Part shown: positions 55,163 through 64,000 of the stretch, piece by piece | Layout: every line of letters starts with the position of its first letter | Position numbering within the stretch: the stretch's first letter is position 1 | Assembly: GCA_017437785.1 (NCBI GenBank) | Contig: JAFRXH010000098.1 | Span: 27,367 to 91,366 of the forward strand | Direction of reading: 5' to 3' | DNA from: Lachnospiraceae bacterium | GTDB lineage: Bacteria; Bacillota; Clostridia; Lachnospirales; Lachnospiraceae | Length of the DNA stretch: 64,000 nucleotides | The notes under the pieces: generated by a model | The model's input: only the letters and a program-made list of their open reading frames with translations | Databases searched by the model: none | What the model was told of the DNA's origin: nothing | Translations under genes and position numbers: made by a program

Positions 55163-56292
55163 CTTGTCACCATCTCGTTATAGATATCTTCTATGCCGCC
55201 CAGCATATCTTCCATCGGGAAGGTCTTTTCGGGCACTTCTTCAAATGCGTCTTCCCTTCCCTCGATCACGGCCTGAAGCTTATCAGCCAGATCAGCCGCA
55301 TTCCTGTTCTTAAACGAACGGCATTTACCGTATGCCACTTCCGGAAGGGATCCGCCGTCACTGTATATAAGCGGCGTCCCGCTCTGACAGGTCTCAAGCG
55401 CGGAAAAACCGAAGCCCTCGGTAAGCGACGGCACCACTACACAGTCCGCCTGCCTGATACATGCTGCCAGATCCTCCCTTGAAAGCGAAGGACGTACCCT
55501 GACCTGCCCGCGCAGATGATCGTTACGCATACGCTCCAGGAACTGACGTCTGGGCTTGACTGGTTCCTTTCCCAGAAGGAAACAGAAACGCACATTACTC
55601 AGATCCACGCCTCTCTTTACGAGCAGACAGATCGCTTTTTCATATACATACACACCCTTGGTCTTGCCGGGGCGGCCGTAGAAAAGGAAGATAAACTGAT
55701 CCTTTACCTTAAAGTATTCCCTTATATTAAAGTCTTTATTTACAGGCTGTTCTTCCCTGCCCATATCGTTGGCAAGATATACGCGGCGCACATCTTTCTT
55801 TTTCCCGCAGTACTTCTGATAGTCGTTTTTAGTTGCATCGGATATCGCGTGGTAAACATCAAACTTCTGACGGCAGCAATACTGTTCCACCACATCATAA
55901 AGAACTGCCCTGTGAACAGCATCAGACCAGAACCACTTATTTCCGCGCACTTCAAAAACCGTAAGCAGAGCAGGTTTATTGTATTTCTTTGCCAGCTTAC
56001 TGACTATGGGAGATGTGGTAAATATGGAGGTGTGTACCACATCACACCACTCTATCTGCGGTTCAATATCCTTTTTCTTCGGGAACGGATGTCCGAAGGC
56101 GCTCTTCCATTTGCAGTACCATACATCTATCCCGTCCACATTCATGACACCGTTGTGCTCATCATCAACTTTCTCTGCTACAACATGCACCTCATGGCCA
56201 CGTTCTATCATACCCTTTGCCAGTTCATAGAACATGGTCTCCGCACCACCCACGTACGGATAAAAATGTGGTAATATCATCGCGATCTTCAC
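55156..56292 (-). CDS. GT4-family glycosyltransferase
   Basis: This 378-residue GT-B enzyme has HFYPYVGGAETMFYELAKGM at the N-terminus (donor loop GGAE), FLFYGRPGKTKGV for the C-terminal domain, and E-x7-E in SLTEGFGFSALETCQSGTPL. It is a typical capsule or lipid-linked oligosaccharide enzyme. It starts with GTG 56292, whose GTGA overlaps the asnB stop, so it is coupled to the amidotransferase. Confidence 0.88.
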   Translation of the reverse strand: MKIAMILPHFYPYVGGAETMFYELAKGMIERGHEVHVVAEKVDDEHNGVMNVDGIDVWYCKWKSAFGHPFPKKKDIEPQIEWCDVVHTSIFTTSPIVSKLAKKYNKPALLTVFEVRGNKWFWSDAVHRAVLYDVVEQYCCRQKFDVYHAISDATKNDYQKYCGKKKDVRRVYLANDMGREEQPVNKDFNIREYFKVKDQFIFLFYGRPGKTKGVYVYEKAICLLVKRGVDLSNVRFCFLLGKEPVKPRRQFLERMRNDHLRGQVRVRPSLSREDLAACIRQADCVVVPSLTEGFGFSALETCQSGTPLIYSDGGSLPEVAYGKCRSFKNRNAADLADKLQAVIEGREDAFEEVPEKTFPMEDMLGGIEDIYNEMVTRC

Positions 56293-58142
56293 TTGTTGTT
56301 ACCCCCTCTGTACCACTGTTCAAGCATAAGCACATTCCATATCAGTCTGGGTGAGCGGCCGTTCTTCAAAAACTCCGCCCACAGTTTAAGCATCTCTTTT
56401 TTGTTGATCAGTTCATCGGAAGCCGCCCTGCTGTTGGTAATAAGCTCATCGGCCCACTCCTTTGTATCGCCCTCCTTAAGCCAGCGCTCAAGCGGTACCG
56501 CAAAACCTTTCTTGGGCCTGTCCATCATTTCCTTGGGCACATATCGATACAGCACTTCCTTAAGCACCCTCTTCGCCGTACTGCCGTCGTACTTATACGC
56601 GGAAGGCAGGCTGAGTGCAAACGCGACAACATCCTTATCAAGCATCGGAATCCTGTTTTCCAATGATACCGCCATACCGGCCCGGTCTACCTTTACCAGT
56701 ATATCCTCCGGATGATACCTCATCAGATCATCCAGCATCATCTGCTGCAACTCGTTGCCGGGCAGTGCGGTTCTTATTATCGATACAGGACCATCCGTAA
56801 GCTTGTCGATAAAAGGATCATAATGATCCACTGCTTCCTTAAACTCCAGTATATTGCCGGCCTTAAGACACATCCCCGCACGGTAAGCCTTGGGGATACT
56901 GCCGGTTATACTGCCGGCCACGCCTCCCGCTGCCATACGCAGCGGCTTAGGCACTCCTTTTATCTTATTCCACAGATCGAGCATCTGCGGATATGTCCTG
57001 TAACCGCAGAAAAGCTCATCGCCCGCATCACCGCTCAGACACACGGTGACTTTGGTCTTTGCCAGGGCGCTTACCAGATAAGTAGGTATCTGCGAAGAAT
57101 CCGCATAGGGTTCCCCGTAGATAGAGGCGATACGCGGTATCACTTCTTTAAGATCCTTTTCCGTCACATAACGCTGTGTATGGTCTGTCCCCAGATGTTT
57201 TGCTATAGCCTCTGCTTCCGGTGCCTCATCATATTTCTTATCATCAAAGCCTATGGAAAATGTCTTGACATCTCCGGGCCTTAATCTGCTCATGATGCCC
57301 ACTACCGTAGCCGAATCGATGCCGCCTGACAGATAGGCGCCAAGAGGTACATCGCTGGCCAGCTGGCCCTTAACCGCTTCCGTCAAAAGACGCTGCAGTT
57401 CATCGGCCGCCTCCTCAAAGCTGCCCGTAAAAGGCTGCTCCAGGGCACGCTGCGCCACCTTCTTGATATTATAATACTTGCCTATCTTAACATCCTGCAC
57501 GGCGAAGGGTTCTTTGACCCTGAATATCCCGCCCGGCTTCAGTTTATACACTTCCTCATATATGGTATGCGGTGCAGGTATATATCCATAAAGCATATAG
57601 GTGCTGATCACCGCTCTGTTTATCTTACCCTCAAATCCGGGAAAACGTGTGATGGCGGATAACTCCGACGCAAAGACGCAGCTTCCGTTCACCCTGCCGA
57701 AGTACAGCGGTTTCTCGCCGATGCGGTCACGCATAAGAGTAAGACTGCGTTCCCAGCGGTCATAAAGGGCTATCGCAAACATGCCCTTTACAGCCTCTAA
57801 AGTTTTTTCGATCCCCAGACGCTCAAAAGCCTCCAAAAGCACCTCCGTATCGGAGCTGCCCCTGTACTTAACGCCCGGCATCTTCGCCTTTAATTCCTCT
57901 GCGTTATAAACCTCACCGTTATATGCGATAACAAAGCGTCCCGATGCACTGATCATGGGCTGGGCACCCGTCTCACTCAGATCCCTGATCGAAAGACGTC
58001 TGTGTCCCAGACTCACGCCGCTGTCCTTGTCCAGCCAGAACCCTTCCGCATCCGGGCCCCTGTGGACAAGGGCATCGGTCATGCTTTTTAAAACGCCCGC
58101 CCTATCTACGTTTCCGTCGATAAAGCCCGCTATGCCACACAT
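56289..58142 (-). CDS. asnB: Glutamine-hydrolysing asparagine synthase family amidotransferase
   Basis: The protein has 617 residues from ATG 58142. I chose this start because MCGIAGF exposes Cys2, the glutaminase nucleophile, and GGGGGAAA lies four bases upstream. The N-terminal glutaminase domain has LGHRRLSI and YNGEVYN, and the C-terminal ATP-pyrophosphatase domain has LSGGIDSATVV and SGDAGDELFCGY. It may make asparagine. As the first gene of a surface-glycan locus, however, it is more likely to amidate a sugar acid, as proposed for asparagine-synthase homologues in O-antigen clusters. All catalytic residues are present. Confidence 0.9.
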   Translation of the reverse strand: MCGIAGFIDGNVDRAGVLKSMTDALVHRGPDAEGFWLDKDSGVSLGHRRLSIRDLSETGAQPMISASGRFVIAYNGEVYNAEELKAKMPGVKYRGSSDTEVLLEAFERLGIEKTLEAVKGMFAIALYDRWERSLTLMRDRIGEKPLYFGRVNGSCVFASELSAITRFPGFEGKINRAVISTYMLYGYIPAPHTIYEEVYKLKPGGIFRVKEPFAVQDVKIGKYYNIKKVAQRALEQPFTGSFEEAADELQRLLTEAVKGQLASDVPLGAYLSGGIDSATVVGIMSRLRPGDVKTFSIGFDDKKYDEAPEAEAIAKHLGTDHTQRYVTEKDLKEVIPRIASIYGEPYADSSQIPTYLVSALAKTKVTVCLSGDAGDELFCGYRTYPQMLDLWNKIKGVPKPLRMAAGGVAGSITGSIPKAYRAGMCLKAGNILEFKEAVDHYDPFIDKLTDGPVSIIRTALPGNELQQMMLDDLMRYHPEDILVKVDRAGMAVSLENRIPMLDKDVVAFALSLPSAYKYDGSTAKRVLKEVLYRYVPKEMMDRPKKGFAVPLERWLKEGDTKEWADELITNSRAASDELINKKEMLKLWAEFLKNGRSPRLIWNVLMLEQWYRGGNNK

Positions 58143-58176
58143 ATCTTTTCCCCCAGACATAGTTTCATGACTATAT

Positions 58177-58185
58177 ATTGTAGCA
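58177..58185 (-). promoter_or_regulatory. Extended -10 promoter of the second glycan locus
   Basis: On the minus strand, TGCTACAAT (58185-58177) is a -10 element with the TGn extension, about 35 bases before the asnB start. No good -35 is present. The sequence ACAATATATAG also follows the operon promoter at 24367, a hint that the two glycan loci share promoter type. Confidence 0.45.
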
Positions 58186-58230
58186 CATAATCCTTCATTT
58201 GACTATATCGAATTATGTAACCCACGCCAC

Positions 58231-58259
58231 AAAAAAACCACGGGGACGTCCCCGTGGTT
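58231..58259 (-). terminator. Strong terminator of the amino acid transporter operon
   Basis: A perfect 24-bp palindrome, AACCACGGGGACGTCCCCGTGGTT (58236-58259), is followed on the minus strand by a run of T. It lies 7 bp after the ATPase stop codon and separates the transporter from the glycan locus. Confidence 0.93.
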
Positions 58260-58266
58260 CGTGGTC

Positions 58267-59082
58267 TTAGAGTACTTTGGAGAGGAAATCCTTCAGGCGG
58301 GGATGCTTAGGATCGCCGAAGAACTCGGCGGGTGTGGCGCTTTCAAGGATAACGCCTTCGTCTATGAAGAGCACGCGGTTGGCCACCTCACGTGCAAAGC
58401 CCATTTCATGGGTAACTATGATCATGGTCATGCCCTCTGCAGCCACTTCACGCATAAGGTCCAAAACTTCACCTACCATCTCGGGATCGAGTGCACTGGT
58501 AGGCTCATCAAAAAGGATGACCTTCGGCTTCATGGCCAGCGCGCGCACTATGGCCACACGCTGCTTCTGTCCGCCGGATAAAGTGGATGGATATACATCG
58601 GCTTTGTCCTCAAGTCCGATGCGCTTAAGAAGCTCCATGGCTTCTTTCCGGGCTTTATCCTTTATCTCGGCGACAGATGAATAACCGCTCTTTTCCTTGA
58701 GTTTGCGGAAGGCTTTCTTTCCGGTATGCACCGGAGCGAGCATGATATTCTGAATAACGGTCTTATTGTTGAAAAGATTGAAATGCTGGAAGACCATGCC
58801 CATATTCTGTCTGTGGAGATTGATATCCACAGACATATCCGCAAGATCTTCGCCATCGAACATGATATGACCTGCAGTGGGATCCTCCATACAGTTTAAG
58901 CAGCGCAGGAAAGTACTCTTGCCAGAGCCTGAAGGCCCGATTACACAGATGATATCGCCGCGATTGACGGTAAGGTCTATCCCGTTGAGCACATGCTTAT
59001 CACCAAAGTCCTTTTTAAGGCCTTCGACTTTAAGTATCACTTCATCTGCTGCACTTGTGTTTACTGCTTTGGTCTCACTCAT
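58267..59082 (-). CDS. Polar amino acid ABC transporter, ATP-binding protein
   Basis: The protein has 271 residues. Walker [10 protein letters not shown] (49-57), the Q-loop in [14 protein letters not shown], signature [15 protein letters not shown], Walker [13 protein letters not shown] and switch [12 protein letters not shown] define the GlnQ/HisP family. An insert of some 15-20 residues after [11 protein letters not shown] lengthens the helical domain compared with GlnQ. It powers uptake of a polar amino acid with the permease encoded upstream (ATGA overlap). Confidence 0.92.
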
Positions 59083-59789
59083 TTTCTTCTGTCACTTTTT
59101 GCAAAATGATGTTCCATCAGTTTAATAAGAATAGTAATGATAACTACCAGCACTATGTATATCAGAGCCATAACGATATACGGCACCATGAATTCGTAAC
59201 TGTTGCTGCCTATGTAATTAAACGCCACGTAGAGGTCGGATGCACCTACGAAACTTACTACAGAGGTTTCCTTGATAAGAGCGATGAACTCGTTGCCTAA
59301 TGTGGGCAATATGTTCTTGATGGCCTGAGGTATGACTATCATCATCATGGTCGCCGAGAAGGAAAGACCCACTGCCCTTCCGGCCTCCATCTGCCCCGGA
59401 TCCACGGACTGTATACCTGCACGCATCATCTCGGAGATGTATGCCCCGGAATTAAGGGAGAATACCAGGACGGATACCTGTACACTGCTTATCTTTATTC
59501 CCAGAATGGGCAGCAGCACATAATAGAACAGCAAAAGCTGCACCACCATTGGCGTCCCCCTGAAGAAACCGACATAGAACGAGCAGATGCCGTTTAATAT
59601 CCTGGGCAGCCTTTTATATTTTGGCATTACCCTTACCGCCGCGATAAGAGTACCTATAAGCGTGCCGAAAAGGAGCCCAAGAACAGCTATGATAAGCGTG
59701 TTCTTAAGCCCTGTCTGCACTCTTTTGTATCCCTCATACTCTATAAAGTACTTGAGGAACCTGTCCCATTTTTGAGAAATATCACCCAT
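59079..59789 (-). CDS. Polar amino acid ABC transporter, permease
   Basis: The protein has 236 residues with about five or six membrane helices and the HisM/GlnP pattern: [36 protein letters not shown] and the ATPase-coupling loop [10 protein letters not shown] near 133. It forms a homodimeric channel with the ATP-binding protein. The gene lies 5 bp after the binding-protein gene and has a poor ribosome site, so it depends on coupling. Confidence 0.92.
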
Positions 59790-59794
59790 TCAGA

Positions 59795-60679
59795 TCACTG
59801 AAGATTGTTGATGGACTCTGCTATGAACTTTGCCGGTGCGGCATCGATTATAACATAATCCAGGTTACCGTTTAACAGATCCTGTACAGCCAGCGAACCA
59901 TTCTTATAGCCTGTTGTAGTCATATTAAATCCGTCAAAGCCCCATTCCTCATCGCCTTCGCAATAGAACTGGCCTGTGGTACCGTTCTGCACACCAACCT
60001 TAACGGATGAATCCTTGCCTTTAAGTATAGCCTCGATATCTGCAGCTCCCGAAACAGAATCAAATTCCGTATTATCGGAGCGGATGATAAGGCGCTGTGA
60101 TGCGGTATAGTATGATGTGGTAAAGTTAACTATCTCCTTACGCTCGTCGGTAACGGTAAGACCGCTCATGGACATATCTGACTTGCCCTGGTTTACCGAA
60201 AGGAGCACTGCATCAAAATCCATGTTCTGAATGACCAGCTCCTTGCCAAGATAATTGGCCAGGCCCTGTGCGATCTCCATATCCACACCGTAGTAGTTAT
60301 CGCCTTCCATATACTCGAAGGGAGCGAAGGCCGCATTGGTAGCTACCAGAAGCTGCTCCTTTGAAGGATCTTCCGCTGCGCTTACGATCGGGGTAGGTGT
60401 TCCGTTTCCGAAATATTTTTCGCAGATGGCATCGAAAGTACCGTCAGATTTGATCTGCGCGATGTACTCGTTTACAGAGCTCAAAAGCTCGGGCTGGTTC
60501 TGGTCTACCGCAAAAGCATACTCTTCCTCGGTAAGGTCAAACTCAAGAACCTTTGCCTTAACCTTTTCTGCCCCTGATGCACCTGCAGTGCCGGTTCCGG
60601 AACCGCTGTTTGTGCAGGCCGCAAGGGTGCTTACAGCCATAGCGGCTGCTAATACTGTTGCAACAATCTTCTTTTTCAT
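59795..60679 (-). CDS. Amino-acid-binding lipoprotein with circularly permuted SBP_bac_3 domain
   Basis: The protein has 294 residues. The lipoprotein signal ends at LAAC (Cys22). Residues about 40-95 read KVLEFDLTEEEYAFAV ... VNEYIAQIKSDGTFDAICEKYF, which in ordinary family members is the last segment of the domain. Only then, at about residue 108, comes the usual start (LLVATNAAFAPFEYM), followed by GVDMEIAQGLANYLGKEL, MSGLTVTDERKEIVNF and VGVQNGTTGQFYCEGDEEWG. The protein ends at DYVIIDAAPAKFIAESIN, just where the moved segment would normally follow. The order is thus permuted while all parts of the two lobes are present. AGGAGAGG precedes ATG 60679. It captures the substrate for the transporter encoded downstream. 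Confidence 0.88.
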   Translation of the reverse strand: MKKKIVATVLAAAMAVSTLAACTNSGSGTGTAGASGAEKVKAKVLEFDLTEEEYAFAVDQNQPELLSSVNEYIAQIKSDGTFDAICEKYFGNGTPTPIVSAAEDPSKEQLLVATNAAFAPFEYMEGDNYYGVDMEIAQGLANYLGKELVIQNMDFDAVLLSVNQGKSDMSMSGLTVTDERKEIVNFTTSYYTASQRLIIRSDNTEFDSVSGAADIEAILKGKDSSVKVGVQNGTTGQFYCEGDEEWGFDGFNMTTTGYKNGSLAVQDLLNGNLDYVIIDAAPAKFIAESINNLQ

Positions 60680-60708
60680 AATCCTCTCCTTATTACTGTC
60701 TTACTGTT

Positions 60709-60736
60709 ATCTTATGGATGAATACCATTCTGTCAG
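60709..60736 (-). promoter_or_regulatory. Possible promoter of the transporter operon, -35 inside a repeat
   Basis: On the minus strand, CTGACA (60736-60731) lies 16 bases before TAAGAT (60714-60709), about 30 bases before the lipoprotein start. The -35 is the last part of repeat locus C. Moderate match only; read-through from carB is the alternative. Confidence 0.4.
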
Positions 60737-60822
60737 GATTCTTCGCTCCGCTCAGAATGACACTGGGGCACCCTCAGGATGACTTGAAATCCTGTCATTC
60801 TGAGGGCTCTGCCCGAAGAATC
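60731..60822. repeat. Dispersed repeat, locus C: inverted pair around a degenerate copy
   Basis: The arm GATTCTTCG...CTCAGAATGACA (60737-60745, 60751-60762) pairs with TGTCATTCTGAG...CGAAGAATC (60793-60804, 60814-60822). A further degenerate copy, CCTCAGGATGACTT, lies between them near 60772-60785. In the carB transcript it would form a long hairpin directly after the stop codon. It is of the same family as loci A and B. Confidence 0.88.
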
Positions 60823-63800
60823 TTATTTAATGCTCTCGTGCCAGGTCTGCAGGGCCTTGACATCGCTTCTGCCGTGCTTGCGCACATGGCGGATACCGTC
60901 TGCTGCCGCTGCTGCCGCTGCAACTGTTGTGATATAAGGTATATGCGCCTTTATGGCTGCCTTTCTTAAGTAGCTGTCGTCGCTGATGCTGTCCTTGCCG
61001 GCAGGAGTATTAACGATAAGCTGTATATCACCGTTGGTGATCAGATCCAGTATATTGGGTCTGCCTTCGCAGAGCTTCTTGACTTTCTCTGCGGGGATGC
61101 CTGCTTCTACGATCAGATCGCAGGTAGTGCCTGTAGCCATGATCTTAAAGCCTGCCTCGTGGAAGCTCTTTGCTACAGCTGCTATCTCGGGCTTATCCTT
61201 ACGGTTAACGGAAATGAGCACCGTTCCTTCAAGAGGAAGGCCTGCGCTTGCAGCCTCTTCTGCCTTATAGAATGCACCGGCCAGGGATTTGCTGATACCC
61301 AGCACTTCACCGGTAGAACGCATCTCGGGTCCAAGGATGGGATCCACTTCCTGGAACATATTGAAGGGAAATACGGCTTCCTTTACGCCGTAGTAAGGTA
61401 TCTCCTTCTCCTTAAGTTCCGGTACCGGCGAAGGTCTGCCGGTAAGCGATCCGGTAATGATATCGGTCGCAATGGGTACCATACGCACGCCGCATACCTT
61501 AGAAACCAGAGGCACGGTACGGCTGGCACGGGGATTTGCCTCCAGAACAAATACCTTTCCGTCCTCGATAGCATACTGCATGTTCATAAGACCTACGACA
61601 TGCATCTCCTCTGCGATCTTTCTGGTATATTCCTTGATGGTTTCAAGATTCTCTGCAGGTATATGCTTGGACGGGATAATGCAGGCACTGTCACCTGAAT
61701 GTATACCGGCCAGCTCTATATGCTCCATTACAGCGGGTACGAATGCATGTGTACCATCGCTGATAGCATCTGCCTCACACTCTAATGCATGATGCAGGAA
61801 TCTGTCGATAAGGATAGGTCTGTCGGGTGTTACACCAACAGCAGCCTTCATATATTCGGTAATGCTCTCTTCGTCATAAACCACTTCCATACCGCGGCCG
61901 CCCAGCACGTAGGAAGGACGTACCATTACGGGATAGCCTATCTTTTCTGCGATAGCCTTTGCCTCTTCAACTGTAGTAGCCATACCGCTTTCGGGCATCG
62001 GGATACCCAGCTTATCCATCATTGCACGGAACTGGTCACGGTCCTCAGCCAGATCGATGACCTCGGGGCTGGTACCTAAGATGTTCACGCCGTTTTTCTT
62101 AAGGTCTGCTGCCAGGTTAAGAGGTGTCTGGCCGCCGAACTGTGCGATAACACCTACGGGCTTCTCCTTGTGATAGATGCTCAGTACATCTTCAAGGGTA
62201 AGAGGCTCAAAATACAGTCTGTCGGAAGTATCGTAATCGGTTGATACGGTCTCGGGGTTGCAGTTTACGATGATCGTCTCAAAGCCCAGTTTCTTAAGAC
62301 TCATAGCTGCATGTACGCAGCAGTAGTCAAACTCGATACCCTGACCTATACGGTTGGGACCGCCGCCCAGGATCATTATCTTCTGCTTATCCGTAGAGTC
62401 GTGTACATCGCTGTCGATGTTGTAACTGCTGTAGTAATAGCAGCTGTCCTGTGTGCCGGATACGTGCACCTTATCCCAGTGCTCTTCGCAGCCTGCCTTA
62501 AGACGTGCATTACGGATATCATCTTCGGATACCTCGAGTATCTCGCTTAAGTACTTATCTGAGAAACCATCCTTCTTTGCCTGTACCAGATCAGCATCTG
62601 CGGGTACCTTGCCCTTATATGCAGCGACAAGCTTTTCTTCCTCTTCCACCAGTTCCTTCATCTGCTCGATGAAATATTTCTTTACCTTTGTGATCTCGTG
62701 GATCTCGTCTACAGTAGCGCCTTTTCTTATAGCCTCATACATCTGGAAGTGACGCTCCGAATTGGGTGTGATAAGCTTCTGCAGCAGCTCTTCCTTGCTG
62801 AGCTCGTAGAAGTTCTTCACATGGCCCAGACCGTAACGGCCTTTCTCAAGTGAACGTACAGCCTTCTGGAAAGCTTCCTTATAGTTCTTACCGATGCTCA
62901 TTACCTCGCCTACGGCGCGCATCTGGGTTCCCAGCTTATCCTCCACACCCTTGAACTTCTCAAATGCCCAGCGTGCGAACTTGACTACAACATAGTCTCC
63001 GCCGGGTACGTACTTATCTAGTGTACCGTACTTACCGCAGGGGATCTCGGAAAGTGTGAGTCCGCTTGCCAGCATTGCGCTTACCAGTGCGATAGGGAAG
63101 CCTGTTGCCTTGGAAGCCAGTGCGGAAGATCGTGAAGTACGGGGATTGATCTCTATTACTATGATACGGTCACTTACGGGATCATGTGCGAACTGTACAT
63201 TGGTACCGCCGATGACCTGTATACGGTCTACAATCTTATATGCCTGCTCCTGCAGTCTCTTCTGCAGATCCTCTGATATCGTGAGCATAGGTGCGGTACA
63301 GAAGGAATCACCGGTATGTACGCCCATGGGATCAACGTTCTCGATAAAGCATACGGTGATCATTTTGCCTTCTTTGTCACGGACAACTTCCAGCTCCAGC
63401 TCTTCCCAGCCTGCCACACATTCCTCAACCAGTACCTGGCCAACGGGGCTTGCCTGAAGACCTCTTGCACATACGGTCTTTAACTCTTCTTTGTTGTATA
63501 CCAGACCGCCGCCGGTACCGCCCATTGTATATGCGGGGCGCAGAACTACGGGATATCCCAGATCATCCGCTATCTTTAAAGCCTCGTCCACGCTGTAGCT
63601 TACTTCGCTGCGCGCCATGCCTATGCCAAGGCTTTCCATTGTCTCCTTGAATTCGATACGGTCCTCACCGCGCTCGATGGCATCTACCTGTACACCGATG
63701 ACTTTTACGTTGTACTTATCAAGTATGCCCTTCTTATTAAGCTCTGCACAGAGGTTGAGTCCCGACTGACCTCCCAGATTGGGAAGCAGCGCATCCGGTC

Positions 63801-64000
63801 TTTCTTTTGCGATGATCTGCTCCAGTCTGTCTGCATTAAGAGGCTCGATGTAAGTAACATCAGCCATTTCGGGATCTGTCATGATCGTCGCAGGATTGGA
63901 GTTGACCAGTATTATCTTATATCCCAGCTTACGCAGCGCCTTGCAGGCCTGTGAGCCGGAATAGACAAACTCGCAGGCCTGACCTATGATGATCTGTCCG
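60823..64000 (-). CDS. carB: Carbamoyl-phosphate synthase large subunit, 5' end outside window
   Basis: About 1,058 residues are visible; only some 13 N-terminal residues should be missing, since the first codons read GQIIIGQACEF, which lies near residue 14 of CarB. Two homologous ATP-grasp halves are present: the first with PAYTMGGTGGG and the second with PSYVLGGRGMEVVYDEES. The second-half start motif is GGGPNRIGQGIEFDYCC. The C-terminal MGS-like allosteric domain has ATGTTCDLIVEAG and STOP-proximal KHGRSDVKALQTWHESIK. The enzyme makes carbamoyl phosphate from glutamine-derived ammonia, bicarbonate and two ATP, for arginine and pyrimidines. Its carA partner is presumably just outside the window. 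Nothing is broken. Confidence 0.97.
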   Translation of the reverse strand, partial: GQIIIGQACEFVYSGSQACKALRKLGYKIILVNSNPATIMTDPEMADVTYIEPLNADRLEQIIAKERPDALLPNLGGQSGLNLCAELNKKGILDKYNVKVIGVQVDAIERGEDRIEFKETMESLGIGMARSEVSYSVDEALKIADDLGYPVVLRPAYTMGGTGGGLVYNKEELKTVCARGLQASPVGQVLVEECVAGWEELELEVVRDKEGKMITVCFIENVDPMGVHTGDSFCTAPMLTISEDLQKRLQEQAYKIVDRIQVIGGTNVQFAHDPVSDRIIVIEINPRTSRSSALASKATGFPIALVSAMLASGLTLSEIPCGKYGTLDKYVPGGDYVVVKFARWAFEKFKGVEDKLGTQMRAVGEVMSIGKNYKEAFQKAVRSLEKGRYGLGHVKNFYELSKEELLQKLITPNSERHFQMYEAIRKGATVDEIHEITKVKKYFIEQMKELVEEEEKLVAAYKGKVPADADLVQAKKDGFSDKYLSEILEVSEDDIRNARLKAGCEEHWDKVHVSGTQDSCYYYSSYNIDSDVHDSTDKQKIMILGGGPNRIGQGIEFDYCCVHAAMSLKKLGFETIIVNCNPETVSTDYDTSDRLYFEPLTLEDVLSIYHKEKPVGVIAQFGGQTPLNLAADLKKNGVNILGTSPEVIDLAEDRDQFRAMMDKLGIPMPESGMATTVEEAKAIAEKIGYPVMVRPSYVLGGRGMEVVYDEESITEYMKAAVGVTPDRPILIDRFLHHALECEADAISDGTHAFVPAVMEHIELAGIHSGDSACIIPSKHIPAENLETIKEYTRKIAEEMHVVGLMNMQYAIEDGKVFVLEANPRASRTVPLVSKVCGVRMVPIATDIITGSLTGRPSPVPELKEKEIPYYGVKEAVFPFNMFQEVDPILGPEMRSTGEVLGISKSLAGAFYKAEEAASAGLPLEGTVLISVNRKDKPEIAAVAKSFHEAGFKIMATGTTCDLIVEAGIPAEKVKKLCEGRPNILDLITNGDIQLIVNTPAGKDSISDDSYLRKAAIKAHIPYITTVAAAAAAADGIRHVRKHGRSDVKALQTWHESIK

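Follow-up and report, generated by a model that had tools for sequence, protein, structure and literature searches.

What arrangement does the gene at positions 59795..60679 (reverse strand) of the window encode? By the window we mean the whole 64,000-nucleotide stretch of DNA that was analysed. Binding proteins of the SBP_bac_3 family canonically carry their segments in the order N-M-C, where N denotes the N-terminal part of lobe 1, M lobe 2 and C the C-terminal segment. A preliminary description placed the segment that ends ordinary members of the family directly behind the lipobox of this protein and read the arrangement as a circular permutation rather than a truncation. This raises the questions of whether the order is real and under selection, which lobe it attaches to the membrane, and how often it has arisen. 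Here, we report that the 294-residue product is a real and conserved natural circular permutation, very probably a functional one, and that it is one of several within the family.

Segment order and conservation of the lipoprotein

SBP_bac_3 (PF00497) is the sole Pfam family above its cut-off in the 294-residue protein (111.9 bits against 26.4). Its match is split into two stretches, and no type I family is found among the three matches listed. In a whole-genome profile search, positions 97-131 of the profile fell upstream of positions 1-106 within a single open frame, out of the N-to-C order of the profile. The same swap appears against canonical proteins of solved structure. For 4zv1, query residues 109-284 match chain residues 11-172, and query residues 43-91 match chain residues 184-232 (i-Evalue 2e-4, strengthening to 3e-7 with a 51-sequence profile); chain residues 199-245 of 5t0w correspond to query residues 44-90, and residues 191-241 of 5eyf to query residues 45-95. 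The alignment to 5tuj is swapped likewise. The expected correspondence between residues of about 40-95 and the C-terminal stretch of canonical members was thus found (4zv1, 5t0w, 5eyf). Since every canonical part occurs one time, with residues 43-91 ahead of residues 107-294, the protein is permuted and not truncated, and its order C-N-M, termed type A, is confirmed.

The open reading frame encodes 294 amino acids plus a stop, and all of its features lie on the reverse strand. A signal peptide and lipobox (LAAC) occupy residues 1-22 (60614..60679) and end in Cys22, which is invariant in 51/51 aligned sequences. Residues 43-91 (60407..60553) are the canonical end of a binding protein, comprising, by alignment to solved chains and mapping on GlnBP, the last lobe-2 strand, hinge strand 2 (residues 50-54) and the C-terminal part of lobe 1. 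Residues 92-109 (60353..60406) form a linker from the canonical C-terminus to the canonical N-terminus, with a mean top-residue share of 0.76 compared with 0.74-0.83 in the domains and 0.46 in the spacer after the lipobox. By alignment, residues 110-194 (60098..60352) make up hinge strand 1 (residues 190-194) and, before it, the canonical N-terminal portion of lobe 1; they hold G173, T175 and R180, the equivalents of ligand contacts. Residues 195-294 (59798..60097) supply the remainder of lobe 2, stop short of its last strand and contain D279, the equivalent of GlnBP D157, which we take to be a ligand-site residue.

The gene heads an operon in which binding protein, permease and ATPase follow one another on one strand, the adjacency expected of a GlnHPQ-type importer. 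The permease subunit (59079..59789, reverse strand) is of the polar amino acid type by profile search, with BPD_transp_1 and HEQRo_perm_3TM both above cut-off. For the ATPase subunit (58267..59082, reverse strand), the best NCBIfam match is GlnQ, below the cut-off of that equivalog, and ABC_tran lies above cut-off. Among 107 scanned C-N-M reading frames, a number that includes repeat fetches of the same gene, 95 are followed by a permease and then an ATPase, four by a permease only, three by an ATPase only and three by neither; two lie at the edge of the fetched stretch. Further out (56289-63882), the importer is flanked by what we presume, by recognition from sequence, to be carB on its upstream side and, downstream, a glutamine-dependent synthetase resembling AsnB. 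In flanks of up to 4 kb, some of them shorter, carB relatives occur near 6/80 type A loci, the nearest relatives of the window, and asnB relatives near 2/80. Because these relatives are so rarely present, the link to glutamine hinted at by carB was dropped, and the neighbours provide no ligand name.

A species-level scan (one genome per species) confirmed 154 relatives, mostly from Lachnospiraceae as judged by record titles, which agrees with the preliminary description. The best 80 loci, at 55-90% identity, were kept, and all 80 have the order C-N-M, the permease being fused on in two. Several come from records without a metagenome-assembly label (L010, L023, L034, L058, L081), L023 being from Eubacterium ruminantium FB3002 and L058 from Blautia sp. 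Marseille-P3201T. Of 397 genomes of the window's family, 40 contain a match that reaches E<=1e-60 and covers most of the model's 287 positions, and none of the 40 shows an internal stop. The permuted gene is under purifying selection, with dN/dS of 0.068-0.096 in five pairs of the window protein and a relative, two of which (L049, L008) have saturated dS. Two relatives carry the permuted protein and the permease as one in-frame fusion (L025, 3989-5581; L033, 4001-5602). Both fusions keep a lipobox-like start and may be anchored at both ends.

The cut mapped on GlnBP

The window protein was aligned to E. coli GlnH (L214). Extracts of PMC7400645 and PMC13229503 give GlnBP a large lobe of residues 5-84 and 186-224, a small lobe of residues 90-180, and hinges at 85-89 and 181-185; PMC13229503 prints the limits of the last hinge as '181, and 189'. 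On this numbering, the window chain starts near residue 171 and ends near residue 170, placing the cut at about 170/171, inside lobe 2 (90-180). Both hinges are intact: hinge 1 (85-89) corresponds to window residues 190-194 and hinge 2 (181-185) to residues 50-54. With the cut inside lobe 2, lobe 1 would therefore be continuous (C part, 18-residue linker, N part) and lobe 2 split between the chain ends; the first ordered element past the lipobox would be the last lobe-2 strand, and the tether would sit on lobe 2. The preliminary description, which had assigned the tether to the C-terminal element of lobe 1, was thus right about the permutation and wrong about the tethered lobe, and it was incomplete in that the family holds several permutations.

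The ligand site largely follows the canonical pattern. The residues predicted to be retained, GlnBP G68, T70, R75 and D157, are matched by window G173, T175, R180 and D279, all four invariant in 51/51 aligned sequences. Two of five GlnBP contacts named in the extract of PMC7400645, which include D10, A67, G68, T70 and R75, differ in the window protein (D10 to N115 and A67 to S172).

Given the conserved order of the segments, the purifying selection on the gene, its operon and the occasional permease fusions, all of them observed, we consider it highly likely that the gene encodes the working, naturally circularly permuted binding lipoprotein of a GlnHPQ-type amino-acid importer, with a type II fold, a lobe-2 tether and a tandem origin. 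The product would fold as an ordinary two-lobed binding protein (type II, cluster F), bind an amino acid via the usual Arg/Asp pair, close like a Venus flytrap about its two intact hinge strands and deliver the ligand to the neighbouring permease. Its chain appears to have been opened in lobe 2 (at about GlnBP 170/171) and its old ends joined by the 18-residue linker, so that lobe 1 would run without a break as an insert in lobe 2 and the lipid anchor would hang on lobe 2, not lobe 1. Probably, two domains first came to lie in tandem in one frame, and the outer parts were then lost. This route, already put forward in the preliminary description, is plausible, and we infer it from the existence of in-frame tandems of complete canonical domains, among them three near-identical copies joined to a permease (L144). 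Rearrangements of this kind probably took place more than once in the phylum (Bacillota, judged by named relatives), with different cut points.

Other permutations in the phylum and their origins

A search for relatives revealed a second order, M-C-N (type B; L102, L103, L105, L109, L111), opened at about residues 97/98 by GlnBP mapping. That the type A cut severs hinge 2 and the type B cut hinge 1 was ruled out, since this mapping puts the cuts in lobe 2. Near-full-length type B matches, defined as starting no later than model position 27 and ending no earlier than 260, occur in 38/392 genomes of the order, a count that leaves out the triple tandem of G266 and multi-domain or sub-threshold matches in G690, G683 and G506. 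Thirty type B loci were fetched, of which 16 read M-C-N and 14 M-C-N-permease.

At the level of the phylum, 398 genomes were surveyed with a C-to-N junction query and architecture scans, and rotated proteins were found in at least 13. These are C-N-M in G000 and G251, M-C-N in G332, G826, G930, G843, G757, G877 and G955, M-C-N-permease in G328, and split proteins, which begin with the second half of lobe 2, continue with C and N and end with its first half, in G842, G1025 and G978. Profile coordinates place the cut of the split proteins midway through lobe 2; five proteins with the family code f45 are cut slightly past the type B position, as judged by eye with one of the five displayed. Junction-bearing tandems or unclassed proteins occur in G880, G789, G1034, G1110 and G951, and the protein of G1058 is canonical. 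Judged from these sequences, then, permutation is found at two or three points in the phylum besides the type A cut, in some cases with fusion to a permease. Every cut seen falls within lobe 2, in a survey whose query needs a contiguous C-to-N junction, favours lobe-2 cuts and would miss cuts in lobe 1.

Several candidates were set aside. In L202 (1358-2905, G251), a 516-residue protein, Pfam finds a diverged SBP_bac_3 stretch and, at E<=0.001, nothing else; with a single such stretch, no permease and a very long branch, it was dropped as M-C-N and from the counts. L199, L200, L201 and L204 scan as C-N-P or M-N-P, where P denotes the permease; each lacks a detected segment, and they are uncounted. 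A plasmid search matched 162 records, of which one covers at least 80% of the junction and proved to be a canonical tandem, N-M-C-N-M-C-P, rather than a rotated protein. A scan of viral contigs with type B returned no relative. When solved sequences were compared with the junction profile, the best match crossed the junction only in the tandem 6h30, among the 60 of 485 matches listed.

The number of origins was addressed with trees of sequences rotated to one order. In a tree of 102 rows, 20/21 C-N-M rows fall into one clade (100/100), and L149 (G538), also C-N-M, groups with canonical proteins (100/96); two changes are needed for C-N-M and six for M-C-N, the doubtful L202 included. All approximately unbiased (AU) tests followed sight of the first tree. 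A single clade of all permuted rows was rejected both in this tree with L202 included (p 2.9e-6) and in a tree of the 74 rows that remained after long or distant ones were pruned (p 2.8e-4), and in the latter a single clade of all M-C-N rows was rejected as well (p 0.0037). The 74-row tree omits L202, L153, L154, L155, L168, five f45 rows, three split rows and GlnH, which are long, distant or their company, together with the canonical L001, L036, L056, L065, L104, L180, L183, L185, L186 and L189-L193, where present. A single clade was not rejected for all C-N-M rows (p 0.243) or for main A and main B together (p 0.308), which leaves the number of origins uncertain, and a rejected clade on its own is still compatible with one gain and later reversals. 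On the simplest reading, the permutation has at least two origins; our own estimate is four or more. Linkers of type A and main type B are no more alike than shuffled sequences (mean score 8.04 against 8.44, s.d. 0.31) and therefore lend no support to a shared tandem ancestor. A quick tree of 95 permeases places the partners of permuted L136 and L149 closest to the permease of canonical L108, and the partner of permuted L102 closest to the permease of canonical L187; both forms of binding protein therefore serve related permeases.

These observations suggest a broader pattern, to which we give slightly less than an even chance: type II amino-acid-binding proteins of the phylum may have been reopened in lobe 2 repeatedly, at about four positions and in at least two (probably at least four) events, always with lobe 1 as a continuous inserted lobe, the hinges spared and the anchor or permease on lobe 2. 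If true, selection would have acted convergently on the choice of tethered lobe, and these proteins would offer a natural experiment on how tethering relates to closure and docking in ABC import.

Alternative explanations, precedents and arrays

The draft state of the window's genome (107 contigs) could raise the suspicion of an assembly or annotation artefact, or of a decaying remnant of a deleted tandem. This suspicion is refuted by the order shared by 80/80 kept loci, several of them not labelled as metagenome assemblies, by dN/dS of 0.07-0.10 and by intact frames, internal stops being absent from the 40 matches in genomes of the family; we regard it as almost certainly wrong. A different concern is raised by canonical relatives with swapped C-terminal elements, which are known (Thermotoga ArgBP). 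Residues 43-91 might pack on lobe 1 of a neighbouring molecule, making the permutation an oligomerisation device, and the conserved linker (top-residue share 0.76) fits an ordered role of this kind. However, 18 residues could bridge the neighbouring canonical ends within one chain, and the two permease fusions would suggest a part that acts in place, so that a domain-swapped dimer appears improbable.

Compatible with the fold that we propose is a permutation that is real yet selectively neutral, having spared the hinges and been fixed by drift after tandem duplication, without effect on tethering or docking. The rearrangement leaves the two hinge strands and the main ligand residues as they were, and permuted and canonical forms serve related permeases (L136 and L149 with L108, L102 with L187), all of which fits neutrality; its weak points are the occurrence of more than one origin with different cuts and the confinement of all seen cuts to lobe 2, albeit in a survey biased that way. 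We treat neutrality as a serious possibility, if on the doubtful side. A working, naturally permuted importer component remains our preferred explanation of the gene.

With type II cluster F proteins of the SBP_bac_3 family (GlnH/GlnBP, HisJ, ArtJ, AncQR), the window protein shares all segments, the main ligand-site residues, the lipobox and the operon partners. It differs from the canonical N-M-C members in its C-N-M order and, by mapping, in its continuous lobe 1, split lobe 2 and tether on lobe 2. The closest precedent is Tp0684 (MglB-2) of Treponema pallidum, described in the extract of PMC4990184 as a crystallised, naturally permuted type I glucose-binding lipoprotein, for which 'Type Ic/Cluster Bc' is proposed and whose authors raise a possible link between permutation and anchoring or tethering. 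Each is a tethered, lipobox-bearing ABC binding protein that is circularly permuted by nature. According to the same extract, the sugar-binding fold of Tp0684 is of type I, and a fourth crossover is added to its three canonical hinge segments; the window protein, in contrast, belongs to a type II family and, by sequence mapping, keeps the usual pair of hinge strands without an extra crossover. Tandems of the GlnPQ type fused to a permease (6h30; E. faecalis L215) also contain a contiguous C-to-N junction, and L215 a fusion of binding protein and permease, but they consist of whole canonical domains in series (N-M-C-N-M-C), unlike the single rotated domain of the window. Binding proteins can tolerate engineered permutation, and a chapter by Clifton et al. 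reportedly covers engineered circularly permuted binding proteins for biosensors; such permutants are man-made, whereas the family described here is natural and conserved.

A literature search by title and abstract opening, with most subscription papers and all bioRxiv preprints outside its reach, found no natural permutation of the SBP_bac_3 amino-acid-binding family among the papers listed, in keeping with the preliminary description, which knew of none; the extracts of PMC2912341 and PMC7683729 concern other matters. Natural permutation, known for a type I protein (Tp0684), is here extended to the other main class, in many genomes, more than one time and with different cuts. Permuted proteins beside canonical relatives on related permeases provide matched pairs with which the role of the tethered lobe in closure, docking and transport could be tested. 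For annotation, it matters that the Pfam profile displays a permuted protein as two stretches of an ordinary family.

Rotated and canonical domains also occur in longer arrays. The 973-residue open frame of L144 (1413-4331, G266:C2) consists of three near-identical canonical domains in series and a permease, apparently a recent in-frame triplication. M-C-N repeats with a permease are found in L145, L146, L150 and L169, some segments being undetected. The 1527-residue frame of L146 (G683) contains five N segments, and the 1001-residue frame of L150 (G097), which starts in lobe 2, contains three; in both, other segments are partly undetected and a permease stands at the end. L151 (1588-5034, G045; 1149 residues) joins two rotated domains (M-C-N repeats), permease and ATPase in one open frame, and L152 (G069; 910 residues) does so with a single rotated domain. 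Where (M-C-N)n repeats end in a permease, the leading M-C may even close up with the final N, enclosing complete domains, and the ends of the arrays of diverged domains (L146, L150) may pair with each other.
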